Assembly: GCA_938017915.1 (NCBI GenBank) | Contig: CALIKW010000059.1 | Span: 1 to 20,661 of the forward strand | From: an uncultured archaeon | GTDB taxonomy: Archaea; Aenigmatarchaeota; Aenigmatarchaeia; CG10238-14; SCSR01 | DNA length: 20,661 nucleotides | Direction: 5' to 3' | Shown here: one piece after another, positions 2,610 through 6,204 of the stretch | Position numbering within the stretch: position 1 is the stretch's first letter | How the letters are laid out: each line of letters begins with the position of its first letter | Translations under genes and position numbers: made by a program | The notes under the pieces: model-generated | What the model was told of the DNA's origin: nothing | Databases searched by the model: none | The model's input: only the letters and a program-made list of their open reading frames with translations

Positions 2610-2933
2610 TTATTCTAATTTCTGCCTTAAGAATTCCCAGACAAATGGCAGGAGAAAACTAAGGAAGAAGCTTAAAAGGAGTACAGGCAAGTTTAACCCA
2701 AAGAATACTTTAAGGAATGAGAACTCTTGGGGAATTATACTCTTGGGAGCAAAGAAGTTGTAAGTTAAGTAAATTGTTAGAGTTCCGAGAACAGCTAAGA
2801 GCAATCCAAGAACATAAATTTGTTTTTGCTTAAACTTAAGTTTTTTCATCAGGATTATACAAGCTAACCCTAAGAAAGCTCCAGTTAATTGGGATACTGA
2901 GTAAACTATTGGATAAGAAAGCGTGTAGCTCAT
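2610..2933 (-). CDS. Three-helix integral membrane protein, unknown function
   Basis: 107 residues, almost entirely hydrophobic, with three predicted membrane helices (about residues 8-28, 40-60 and 75-100). They are separated by a basic loop (KKLKFKQKQ) and a short polar loop containing FAPKS. The start ATG overlaps the stop of the upstream coiled-coil gene by 4 nt (2930-2933), so the two are translationally coupled. The family is not recognised and no catalytic motif is visible. Pairing with a UBA-like/coiled-coil partner suggests a membrane-associated complex, which is inference only. Confidence 0.7.
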   Translation of the reverse strand: MSYTLSYPIVYSVSQLTGAFLGLACIILMKKLKFKQKQIYVLGLLLAVLGTLTIYLTYNFFAPKSIIPQEFSFLKVFFGLNLPVLLLSFFLSFLLPFVWEFLRQKLE

Positions 2934-3466
2934 TTACTCACTTTACTCATATCTTGCAATTCTTCTTTAAGATGCTCTATTTGATTCTTAAGTTGAGTTA
3001 TGCTTTTTTCCAAATCTTCTGCTTCTCTAATCTCCTCTTCTTTATAACTTGCTGGCCTTAGAAAATAAGAATCTAAACTAAAGAATTTTTTTTCAAAATT
3101 TTGTAAAGTATTTTCCAAAATTTTAAGATTTTCTTTGAGTAAGCTTTCTATTTCTTTTAATGAATTGAAAGAACCCTTAATTAGCTCTATTGCAACTTTA
3201 ATCTCGCTCAAGCATTCGAGAATTTGCTTATATTTTTCCAATTTAACAAAAAGAGGAGCAATTGTTTCTTTTTTCTCTTCAACCTTTTTCTCTTCTGCTT
3301 TTTCCTCAGGAAAATTGTAAAACTGAACTAGTGCTTGATCTATTTCTTCCGCAGAAAAACCTTCTTTCATAAGATTTTGAATTATTTCCACATCAGGGAA
3401 ATTTTTTGTTTTCAATTCCCTAACTCTCTCTATTGGTATAAAGCCTTTACCTTTTTTCCTAAACAT
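2930..3466 (-). CDS. UBA-like/coiled-coil cytoplasmic protein, unknown function
   Basis: 178 residues. Residues ~10-48 resemble a UBA/CUE-type three-helix module: FIPIERVRELKTKNF, then IIQNLMKEGFSAEEIDQAL, with a Gly-Phe turn. A Glu/Lys-rich linker (~55-68) follows, then long amphipathic helices to the C-terminus that look like coiled coil. There is no signal peptide or membrane helix. It overlaps the downstream three-helix membrane protein by 4 nt, so the pair probably acts together, the coiled coil being the soluble arm. The gene begins 33 nt after the 3' end of tRNA-Gly on the same strand and lacks an obvious Shine-Dalgarno. I have the impression that such IPIERV-type proteins are common in DPANN archaea, but I know of no assigned function. 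Confidence 0.75.
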   Translation of the reverse strand: MFRKKGKGFIPIERVRELKTKNFPDVEIIQNLMKEGFSAEEIDQALVQFYNFPEEKAEEKKVEEKKETIAPLFVKLEKYKQILECLSEIKVAIELIKGSFNSLKEIESLLKENLKILENTLQNFEKKFFSLDSYFLRPASYKEEEIREAEDLEKSITQLKNQIEHLKEELQDMSKVSK

Positions 3467-3572: not shown

Positions 3573-3860
3573 TCATCCAAAAATTAAACCAAATTTCTCG
3601 TTTGCTATTTCTTCCTCTTCCTTAATCTTTTTAATAATCTCATCCTTTTTTTCATTTTTAATTTCTTCTGCTATATTTTTAGTTAATTCTAAAGCTCTCT
3701 TGCATTGTTCTTCTGATCCTGAAATTAGAAAATAAAAGCCTTCTTCTCCAAAAAGCCTACCTTCTTTAAAAGTAATACTAGCTCTTGAAATAGTATCATC
3801 TTTAAGCAAAATATCCTTAATCTTTTCTAAATTTTTTTCAATTTTTAAGACAATTTCCAT
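3573..3860 (-). CDS. Small alpha/beta protein, unknown function
   Basis: 95 residues, soluble and acidic/basic. The first ~62 residues alternate strand and helix: MEIVLKIE strand, helix, SRASITFKEG strand, then GFYFLISGSEEQCKRALEL strand-turn-helix, reminiscent of a small ferredoxin-like or ACT-like fold. A charged Lys/Glu helix (~63-90) follows. No catalytic residues are recognised. The gene is the first of a minus-strand run; its TGA directly abuts tRNA-Gly. An AT-rich promoter region lies at about 3861-3918. The family is not recognised; coding status rests on length, composition and clean start and stop. Confidence 0.65.
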   Translation of the reverse strand: MEIVLKIEKNLEKIKDILLKDDTISRASITFKEGRLFGEEGFYFLISGSEEQCKRALELTKNIAEEIKNEKKDEIIKKIKEEEEIANEKFGLIFG

Positions 3861-3918
3861 TCTTTCACTTACTTTTAAGTTTATTTTTTAAATTTCGAGT
3901 TTAAATTTTTAAATCCTG

Positions 3919-3991
3919 AGCCCCGAGGGGGATTTGAACCCCCGACCTGCTGCTTACGAGGCAGCTGCTCTACCAACTGAGCTATCGGGGC
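3919..3991 (-). tRNA. tRNA-Thr(CGT)
   Basis: The reverse strand folds with acceptor GCCCCGA/TCGGGGC, discriminator U, D-arm GCTC...GAGC, anticodon stem GCTGC/GCAGC around loop CTCGTAA (anticodon CGT), and T-arm GGGGG-TTCAAAT-CCCCC. No intron and no encoded CCA. A TATAAATTAA-like box on the minus strand just upstream (about 3992-4002) could form part of its promoter. Confidence 0.96.
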
Positions 3992-4038: not shown

Positions 4039-5025
4039 ATGGAAGCCCTTTTTTGGGTGAGGGAAAAAAACGGAATAAGGTGCAATCTTTGTGCTTGGAA
4101 CTGCTTTATTAAAACTGGGGAAAAGGGATATTGTGGAGCTAGAGAAAATAAGAATAATAACCTTATTCCACTGAATTTTGGAAAGCTAACTTTAATGGAG
4201 GTTAAAGATATAGAAGAAATTCCGATGTTTCATTTTGCTCCATCTTCAAAGACTTTATTCATAAACTCTATAGGAAAAAATTTAAAAGGAAGATATTTTT
4301 CTAATGAAATACTTAAGGAAAGGGGGAAAAAAGTTGAGGAAATTTCTCCAGAAGATTTGATAGATGAAGCAGAAAATAAAAAAGTATCTTCTATAACTTT
4401 TGGTGGGGATGCAGAAGTTTACTTTGAGTTTGCATACAAAGTTGCAAGATTTGCTAAAAGGTCGAACATTTTAACAATATTTTCAACTCACGGATATATA
4501 GAGGAGGAGCCGATAAAAAAGATAGGCAAATATTTGGATGGTGCAATAGTTAATATAATAGCATCAGCAGATCAAGACTTTTATAAAAGGTTTATAGATG
4601 TTGAGGATATAACCCCAATATTTTCAACTTTAAAACAATTTATGAAGCAAAGGGTTTTTATAGAAATTTCAAATACAATAGTTCCCAAGCTTGGTGATAA
4701 TTTAGAACTTTGCAGAAAATTGGCAGAATTTATAAATGCAGAGCTAAGCTCAGAAATTCCATTTCACATACTTCAATTCTATCCAGGCTTTGGGTTGCAA
4801 GAACTTCCGAAGACTCCTTTAAAAATTTTAGAAAAATGTGCTGAAGAAGCGAGAATGGCTGGATTAAGGTATGTATATATAAGTAATGTAGATCCTTATA
4901 GAAACACTTATTGCTATAATTGTAGGGAGCCTTTAATCTTAAGGAAGAAGAAAAAGGTTGAAATAAGGTTAGCTGGTGACAGATGCCCAACTTGTGGTTT
5001 AAAAATGAACCTTCTAATAAAATAA
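4039..5025 (+). CDS. AmrS-like radical-SAM-fold protein lacking the cluster cysteines (probable pseudoenzyme)
   Basis: 328 residues, close to the usual length of the AmmeMemoRadiSam radical SAM enzyme (AmrS, COG1180-like). Family landmarks are collinear: an N-terminal Cys cluster (C15, C18, C22, C32, as in RCxLCxxxC...GxCGxREN), then the FHFAPSSKTLFINSIG lead-in, the barrel body, and a C-terminal zinc-ribbon-like pair (C292/C295 and C316/C319). Where the family has the SAM-cluster motif GCNxRCxYCQN, this protein reads GKNLKGRYFSN, so the three cysteines are K80, G84 and F87. The following TYNEP-type segment is also changed, to GGDAE (residues 122-126). The frame is intact over 987 nt, so this is not simple decay. 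Radical chemistry is unlikely; a structural, binding or Zn-dependent role is possible. AMMECR1 and Memo partners are absent from the window. Start: ATG 4039 after GTGGT at 4031. Confidence 0.85.
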   Translation: MEALFWVREKNGIRCNLCAWNCFIKTGEKGYCGARENKNNNLIPLNFGKLTLMEVKDIEEIPMFHFAPSSKTLFINSIGKNLKGRYFSNEILKERGKKVEEISPEDLIDEAENKKVSSITFGGDAEVYFEFAYKVARFAKRSNILTIFSTHGYIEEEPIKKIGKYLDGAIVNIIASADQDFYKRFIDVEDITPIFSTLKQFMKQRVFIEISNTIVPKLGDNLELCRKLAEFINAELSSEIPFHILQFYPGFGLQELPKTPLKILEKCAEEARMAGLRYVYISNVDPYRNTYCYNCREPLILRKKKKVEIRLAGDRCPTCGLKMNLLIK

Positions 5026-5053: not shown

Positions 5054-5950
5054 ATGAAAAAAGCTTTGGTTTTTGCAGTTTTTTTCTTCTTAATTTTTTT
5101 AAGAGTTTCGTTTGCTCAAATTCAGTATTATGGTGTTGAAAGTTATATTGCTGGTAAAAGAAGTTACAACAGAATTACAATAACATTTCCTGAACCAAGG
5201 GAAGAATTCATTTTTACAATAAAGGGAAGAATTGAAAATTTGGCTGCAAAGACCATAGGAGAAAGCATAGATTGTAAAGAAAAAATTTCTGGAATAACGT
5301 TAGTATCATGCAAGCTTAACCTTACTAAGGATAGAAGAACGATTGAAGTTTATTTTGAAACAGAAGATTTTGTTAAAAGTTTGGATAGCAAATTTATTTT
5401 TACTGCTGACTTAAGCCTTGGAGAAGAAATTTCGAGTGCTTTTGTTTCTGTGAAGCTACCAGAAGGAATGGCATTGATAAGCGAAGACATTCCTGGAAGG
5501 ATATTGCCCGAAAATTCAAGCATTTTAAGTGATGGAAGGCATATAATTATTACTTGGAAGATGGATGAAATAAGTAAAACCCAACCCTTAATATTTCAAG
5601 TAATATATGAGCCAATTTCTCAACAAGCTTTTTTTATTCCAACCTTTTACTTAATTTCTTTTAGTATAGGTATTTTTATAATTTCATTCCTCATATTTTA
5701 CTTCTTCTATCTCAAAAAGCCAAAAGAGCTTGTCCTTTCTGTTTTGGATGATTTTGAAAAAAAGGTTTTAAATTGTATAATAGAGGCTGGAGGTGAAGTT
5801 AAGCAGAAAAGGATTGTGAACGAAACAAACCTTTCAAAAGCAAAAGTAAGCAGAATAGTAAAAAATCTGGAAAAAAGAGGGTTGATTGAGGTTAAAAGGT
5901 TGGGCAGAACAAACTTGTTAAAGCTTGTTAAGAAAAAACTGGAACTCTAA
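5054..5950 (+). CDS. Membrane-tethered winged-helix transcription regulator with extracytoplasmic domain
   Basis: 298 residues. A signal peptide or first membrane helix (residues ~1-21, ending VSFA|Q) leads to an extracytoplasmic beta-rich domain (~22-190). A membrane helix (~194-220, rich in Ile/Phe) and a KKPKELVL juxtamembrane linker follow. The cytoplasmic C-terminus (~228-298) is a winged helix: DDFEKKVLNCIIEAGGEVKQ, recognition-helix region LSKAKVSRIVKNLEKRGLI, then wing VKRLGRTNLLKL. This matches the archaeal COG2512-type architecture of predicted membrane-associated MarR/ArsR-like regulators, so an outside signal may act directly on DNA binding. The last 4 nt overlap the convergent EF-Tu-like gene. 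It has its own TTTAAA box. The regulon is unknown; nearby secreted-protein genes are possible targets by proximity only. Confidence 0.85.
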   Translation: MKKALVFAVFFFLIFLRVSFAQIQYYGVESYIAGKRSYNRITITFPEPREEFIFTIKGRIENLAAKTIGESIDCKEKISGITLVSCKLNLTKDRRTIEVYFETEDFVKSLDSKFIFTADLSLGEEISSAFVSVKLPEGMALISEDIPGRILPENSSILSDGRHIIITWKMDEISKTQPLIFQVIYEPISQQAFFIPTFYLISFSIGIFIISFLIFYFFYLKKPKELVLSVLDDFEKKVLNCIIEAGGEVKQKRIVNETNLSKAKVSRIVKNLEKRGLIEVKRLGRTNLLKLVKKKLEL

Positions 5951-6204
5951 ACTATTTTGTAAACCTTATCTCCTTCTCTCACTTTTTCTACAACTTTTAG
6001 CCCTATGGAATCCCCTGGATTTGCTTTTTCTATATTTTTATGCTCTATTTGCATGGATTCAACTTTTTGCCTGAAGTTCGTAGTTTTTCCTTCTATAGAT
6101 ATTTCATCCCCTACGCTAAGTTCATCTTCTAGCTCAACAACAGCAACCCCTATTTTTCCGTAGTAGTGAGTTATTTTTCCAACAAGCTTTTTCTCTTCTT
6201 CCAT
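5947..6204 (-). CDS. Translation elongation factor-like (EF-Tu domain 2-like) protein
   Basis: 85 residues forming an all-beta barrel pattern like domain 2 of EF-Tu/EF-1A: KLVGKITHYYGKIGVAVVEL, then LSVGDEISIEG, VESMQIEHKNIEKANPGDSIGLKV, and REGDKVYKI. Stand-alone proteins of this size and pattern are known in archaea as translation-elongation-factor-like proteins. The GTPase domain is absent, so the expected activity is RNA or protein binding rather than GTP hydrolysis. It is convergent with and overlaps the winged-helix gene by 4 nt. It is divergent from the secreted-protein gene, with only 45 nt between the start codons holding both promoters. Family assignment is good; biochemical role is unknown. 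Confidence 0.8.
   Translation of the reverse strand: MEEEKKLVGKITHYYGKIGVAVVELEDELSVGDEISIEGKTTNFRQKVESMQIEHKNIEKANPGDSIGLKVVEKVREGDKVYKIV

Follow-up and report, generated by a model that had tools for sequence, protein, structure and literature searches.

Apparent recurrent loss of the radical-SAM site from AmrS-like proteins at a conserved operon in one order of Aenigmatarchaeota

The AMMECR1-Memo-AmrS set, for which PMC7159879 cites a 2019 paper by Burroughs and others, has no settled function in the literature that we searched. The search likewise returned no account of a cluster-less AmrS, an absence that proves little as subscription papers lay mostly outside it, and no report of AmrS beside a membrane-anchored regulator or S-layer genes. 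The PFL-activating enzyme (PFL-AE) contains a cluster and SAM according to the titles of PDB entries 3c8f and 3cb8, and a monovalent cation matters for it (PMC9326890). In the diphthamide enzyme Dph1-Dph2 both subunits are said to hold clusters (PMC11048331), and it resembles the present case in having unlike radical-SAM paralogues within one cell.

We analysed a stretch of 20,661 nucleotides (the window) from an uncultured archaeon of the Aenigmatarchaeota, in which an open frame with an ATG start (4039..5025, + strand) encodes a 328 aa pseudoenzyme derived from AmrS. In the alignment K80, G84 and F87 occupy the positions of the CxxxCxxC cysteines of the homologues, and the former radical-SAM site reads GKNLKGRYFSN (4273..4305, +). 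All eight cysteines outside this site are present, as the N-terminal Cys4 module (C15, C18, C22 and C32; 4081..4134, +) and the zinc-ribbon-like C-terminal Cys4 module (C292, C295, C316 and C319; 4912..4995, +), both kept in the alignment of homologues and, from their sequence pattern, putative zinc sites. Homology to AmrS (TIGR04337) is near full length and both Cys4 modules are common to the two, the modules being taken as an AmrS feature from the homologue alignment and not from a published definition. The preliminary description had reported the open 328-codon frame, the three replaced cysteines and the retention of both cysteine clusters, all of which our analysis bears out. It had also held that only the Fe-S/SAM site was lost, which proved too narrow, as four residues of the intact family, D172, K174, T122 and N151, are N, I, G and H in the window protein, which so differs in more than the Fe-S ligands. 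GGDAE (4402..4416, +) stands where most intact copies have the SAM-side motif TxEPT, and N172 (4552..4554, +) stands where 142/145 intact rows have Asp, a position that aligns with PFL-AE D129 by position count on the alignment. We take D129 to be part of the SAM-side cation site of PFL-AE. With no cysteine ligands for a [4Fe-4S] cluster and with altered SAM-side residues, the window protein is not expected to act as an ordinary radical-SAM enzyme, and SAM cleavage via such a cluster is expected to be absent because no cysteine ligand remains at the cluster site.

The best family for the window protein was TIGR04337 (NCBIfam, AmrS) at 174.3 bits, below the curated cut-off of 220, and the Pfam scan returned no family at E 0.01, PF04055 included; the assignment to AmrS is thus right but weak. 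An AmrS origin is supported by fold together with sequence. The AF2 model (pLDDT 94) has the predicted AmrS/PFL-activase fold, and a radical-SAM barrel was recovered through the model, Foldseek and VIA-align. Its top PDB match was PFL-AE (3c8f, 3cb8), covering model residues 43-281, so that both Cys4 ends lie outside the matched part. The top VIA-align rows align residues 43-285 and at least a fifth of the rows span only 49-327, by which the N-terminal Cys4 part was scarcely tested for fold. A different family was ruled out by the TIGR04337 best match, Foldseek and VIA-align, and no closer match to a family lacking CxxxCxxC emerged, the closest being AmrS and PFL-AE. Seven further degenerate proteins were scanned. 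P0106, P0063, P0041 and P0028 exceeded the TIGR04337 cut-off, so that this score would have them named radical SAM enzymes, while P0077, P0078 and P0113 fell short of it; all three intact proteins scanned exceeded it.

To place the window protein among its relatives, the best 120 of 238 homologues (P rows, window protein included) were aligned and combined with 92 ORFs taken from loci (L rows), one weak ORF of 93 being dropped. Some genes are present as both P and L rows, so the rows are not independent. The combined alignment holds 145 rows with all three cysteines (CCC) and 63 degenerate rows, the latter count leaving out the duplicate of the window protein and three fragments. The four nearest homologues (P0002-P0005, 71-84% identity) lie on other contigs and carry the same K/R-G-F; the loss being common to them, it is not the decay of one strain, and none of these four has intact cysteines at the site. 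A sequence or assembly error, conceivable as the window comes from a single draft genome, is refuted by the same four relatives and its probability is negligible.

The degenerate site takes many forms, most commonly CSC (17 rows), CEC (7), T-- (6), CDC (5) and T-H (5), with dashes for deleted positions, followed by KGF and N-- (4 each), CQC and PSS (2 each) and eleven more seen once. As the outer two cysteines are kept in 33/63 degenerate rows, such CxC forms, whose middle residue is Ser, Asp, Glu, Gln, Gly or Pro, might still coordinate a cluster through an unusual ligand or accommodate a different cofactor in the barrel. Residue 172 speaks against this altered chemistry, since Asp is found there in 142 of the 145 intact rows and in 0/63 degenerate rows, all 33 of those with CxC included, and the window protein and the motif-deleted forms have no cysteine at the site at all; we regard it as unlikely. 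Degenerate rows mostly have Asn, Arg or Lys at 172, and the three intact rows without Asp172 (P0007, P0022 and L005) carry Asn. K174 is Lys in 145/145 intact rows and in 26/63 degenerate rows.

Wherever a degenerate row is long enough to include the C-terminal Cys4, that module is complete (62/62), and the N-terminal Cys4 is kept in 59/63. The four exceptions make up genus g4 (L021-L024 in G035-G038), where the degenerate AmrS has none of the four N-terminal cysteines and retains the C-terminal four, which indicates that the two modules are separable. The mirror case occurs in another family, in G116-G118 (L133, L134 and L135) and G127 (L137), where an AmrS with intact CxxxCxxC stops just before the C-terminal Cys4, and this too supports separable parts. 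No C-terminal Cys4 module was found in other frames immediately downstream of AmrS in these four genomes; in L133 and L137 the gene next after the truncated AmrS is c13, a family described below.

An AmrS match was present in 101/156 genomes of the phylum, their placement in the Aenigmatarchaeota being taken from homologue names. All degenerate copies that could be located to a genome belong to the order of the window (families f1, f2 and f5), and outside it CCC is intact in 70/70 matched ORFs, 40 of them among the rows aligned first and 30 added later. The tree was built from 98 rows after removal of the motif columns. It excludes two duplicates, three fragments and the divergent intact L042 and L045, and P rows and rows from beyond the order had first been reduced by an identity filter. 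The clade of the window protein has support of 100/100, and the degenerate rows are scattered among intact ones. Under an irreversible model the best tree requires 6 losses of the radical-SAM site, and a minimum of 3 is left when only well-supported branches are kept. Constraining 44 degenerate rows to one clade cost 131 log units (AU p 0.0027, the clade group having been chosen after the data were seen, the bootstrap not having converged completely and two f5 rows forming very long branches), by which a single pseudoenzyme clade is ruled out. The sequences thus indicate that the site was lost recurrently, several separate times, within one order of tiny archaea. The pseudoenzyme branch proposed in the preliminary description stands insofar as the protein is a retained pseudoenzyme and not a decaying one, but it is not one branch.

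Selection was assessed by dN/dS on genera g17, g4 and g13. In g17 pN/pS was 0.08-0.22 for the motif-less copies, and the other, intact AmrS of those genomes gave 0.12-0.26; degenerate copies of g4 gave 0.20-0.28 and intact copies of g13 gave 0.19-0.30, values which are rough because dS is saturated in many pairs. No relaxation was seen in the motif-less or degenerate copies of g17 and g4, and the motif-less copies of g17 are, on these ratios, under purifying selection. Strain-specific decay was ruled out by these values together with the K/R-G-F shared by four relatives. A slower decay could still be imagined, in which the gene is being lost after the loss of AMMECR1 or in the presence of a second AmrS and its retention reflects time rather than function; the many different broken states of the site fit such a course, as does the lack of any AmrS match in three genomes of the order (G022, G032 and G034). 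Yet no degenerate copy from the genome search has an internal stop (the split copy of G043 has an intact motif), the purifying selection on motif-less copies is strong, the C-terminal Cys4 is invariably complete where rows reach it while the radical-SAM site varies freely, and the operon order is preserved. We hold slow decay to be very unlikely. The data show a recurrent and selected loss of this site, the remainder of the protein and the operon having been retained.

The gene in the window also differs from described AmrS in adjoining a membrane-anchored winged-helix gene and not AMMECR1 or Memo, besides lacking CxxxCxxC, D172 and K174 and scoring below the family cut-off. This neighbour, c1 (5054..5950, +), begins 28 nt beyond the stop codon of AmrS and has a winged helix of the DUF7343 type (PF24034); an N-terminal hydrophobic, signal-like helix, a beta-rich ectodomain and a TM helix at about 197-220 precede the winged helix (AF2 model, pLDDT 83, pTM 0.58). 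Upstream lie a divergent tRNA-Thr(CGT) (3918..3991, -) and the genes c3 (95 aa; 3573..3860, -), for which the Pfam and NCBIfam scans gave no family, and c4 (178 aa; 2930..3466, -), which has weak coiled-coil-type matches only; each of these two is a divergent neighbour in 17/32 loci. An S-layer protein (PF05124; 18275..20365, +) is encoded 12.3 kb downstream of c1 and is a homologue of the S-layer gene found behind c1 in other genomes. An 85-aa ORF at 5947-6204 (-) has a weak likeness to the peptidase U32 C-terminal domain (28.0 bits, cut-off 28.2).

Across the order 27/32 loci have c1 downstream of AmrS and in the same orientation (10/12 with an intact and 17/20 with a degenerate AmrS), mostly immediately behind AmrS or behind c13; in G043 the second piece of the split AmrS comes between. 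Four of the five loci without c1 are at contig ends (G018, G021, G049 and G050), and G048, where c13 is present, is a real exception. The c13 family comprises uncharacterised proteins of about 150 aa downstream of AmrS across the class (L057, L070, L011 and others), and the one member scanned gave only a weak sub-cut-off match in Pfam. An S-layer-like gene occurs in 20/32 loci of the order, and outside it an S-layer homologue is near only 4/70 loci, many of which have short flanks. Outside the order 36 AmrS loci have 1200 nt or more of downstream sequence; c13 is present in 19, c1 in 13, either in 21 and neither in 15. As c13 and/or c1 directly follow AmrS in these 21, the operon is older than the losses. 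By position, the window protein is orthologous to the intact AmrS copies at this old operon, AmrS (- c13) - c1, which often continues with an S-layer gene. Within the order, 14 loci carry the other, intact type of AmrS, and tblastn gave no match at any of them to the neighbour families of the c1 locus. Memo and AMMECR1 adjoin AmrS at seven loci when those beyond the order are counted too (G024-G027, G029, G077 and G144). In G021, G044 and G045 the intact copy of the c1-locus type has AMMECR1 2.5-3.3 kb upstream of it.

We then compared gene content in 36 genomes of the order, of which 22 have any intact AmrS, 11 only a degenerate one and 3 none. AMMECR1 was present in 21/22, 2/11 and 0/3 of these, respectively, G052 being the exception in the first group and G049 and G050 (82-85% complete, AmrS found only as degenerate) the positives in the second; Memo was present in 21/22, 6/11 and 3/3. 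Since AMMECR1 was not found in 9/11 genomes whose only AmrS is degenerate, the degenerate protein persists in genomes where AMMECR1 is not found, and in G023, G033, G037 and G046 (73-92% complete) neither AMMECR1 nor Memo was found beside it. The genome of the window, checked for both genes as the preliminary description had advised, has AMMECR1 (G000:C66), Memo (G000:C5) and an AmrS paralogue with intact motif; the Memo and paralogue genes are interrupted by contig ends, and all AMMECR1 and Memo matches are on contigs other than C59, which carries the window. Locus-type c1 was found in 26/31 genomes with a c1-locus AmrS copy and in 0/5 without, not counting weaker c1-like matches elsewhere in G030, G052 and G048.

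Because an intact AmrS also occurs in the genomes of the window, G024-G027, G029, G047, G048 and G051, the degenerate protein might be a non-catalytic partner of that enzyme, in the manner of Dph1-Dph2. In contrast to Dph1-Dph2, where both subunits are said to contain a cluster, 11/36 genomes of the order show degenerate AmrS only, six of them 91-96% complete, and the intact other copies derive from different regions of the tree, which makes such a pseudo-subunit improbable. Either a second intact AmrS was present or AMMECR1 was not found for 18/20 degenerate copies as against 4/12 intact copies, or 6/12 if the divergent intact L042 and L045 (G028 and G042) are taken as second copies.

SUF-type cluster assembly is taken here as a sign of oxic life, and strong SUF matches (PF01458) were found in the genomes of 18/20 degenerate but 1/12 intact copies, or 3/12 if the single weaker matches of G031 and G042, scored negative here, are taken as positive. 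SUF-bearing lineages may accordingly have shed radical-SAM sites in adaptation to oxygen with the role of the protein otherwise unchanged, and the mere 1-3 PF04055 matches in the whole of G033, G035, G036 and G037 agree with this. However, neither the genome of the window (77% complete) nor G049 gave a SUF match, 7-11 PF04055 matches occur in G023, G024, G025, G027, G038 and G040, and independent contrasts are few; we consider oxygen adaptation a rather unlikely account. After correction for descent none of the links to AMMECR1, SUF or a second copy was significant, with only 2-4 independent contrasts.

The loss of the site, the kept cysteines and the place beside a membrane-bound regulator suggest a further function independent of radical chemistry. 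For the retained function the preliminary description had proposed, as an example, Zn-dependent binding of nucleic acid or protein; the context to which synteny points is a membrane-anchored winged-helix regulator, often with an S-layer gene. We lean, with confidence a little above even, towards a selected pseudoenzyme with a radical-SAM-independent role at an envelope locus. The AmrS copy at the c1 locus would have had a second role for which the fold and the Cys4 sites were needed and the radical was not. It would most probably have partnered the c1 membrane regulator as a cytosolic metal-binding protein, and the pair may control envelope (S-layer) genes. The AMMECR1-linked radical reaction would have become dispensable or been done by the other AmrS copy, after which only the radical-free role would have stayed under selection. 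More tentatively, and with less than even confidence, AmrS in Aenigmatarchaeota may be a two-function protein, combining AMMECR1-linked radical chemistry with an ancestral part as metal-binding partner of a regulator at an envelope operon, the two being separated by the variants that have lost the radical site or the C-terminal Cys4. Contrary to a second role are the four genomes of genus g4 without the N-terminal Cys4, the distance of 12 kb to the S-layer gene in the window, the few S-layer homologues near AmrS outside the order (4/70), the 15/36 out-of-order loci with neither c13 nor c1, the AMMECR1 of G049 and G050, and G018-G020 and G029, where a c1-type locus with an intact copy coexists with another intact AmrS. 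In G022, G032 and G034 neither AmrS nor locus-type c1 was found, a joint absence that could reflect assembly gaps because the two genes are adjacent. These archaea offer natural separation-of-function variants, with AmrS lacking the radical site or the C-terminal Cys4 and genomes with or without AMMECR1, and an operon of AmrS with a membrane-anchored regulator, often with an S-layer gene, gives a testable context for AmrS function.

Some individual loci showed further features. G029 has one intact and one degenerate AmrS (L007/L120 and L043/L121), each at a c1/S-layer locus, as a duplicated locus or a mixed bin would give. The AmrS of L047:63-1691 (G043) and of P0068 contains an intein (PF14890), which in L047 is placed by the alignment inside the radical-SAM motif, just 5' of the third cysteine; the G043 gene is also divided over two frames, its motif being intact. 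At L059:1453-2973 (G144) and G019:C98:14402-15697 the Memo and AMMECR1 matches fall in one open frame and the two genes are apparently fused.
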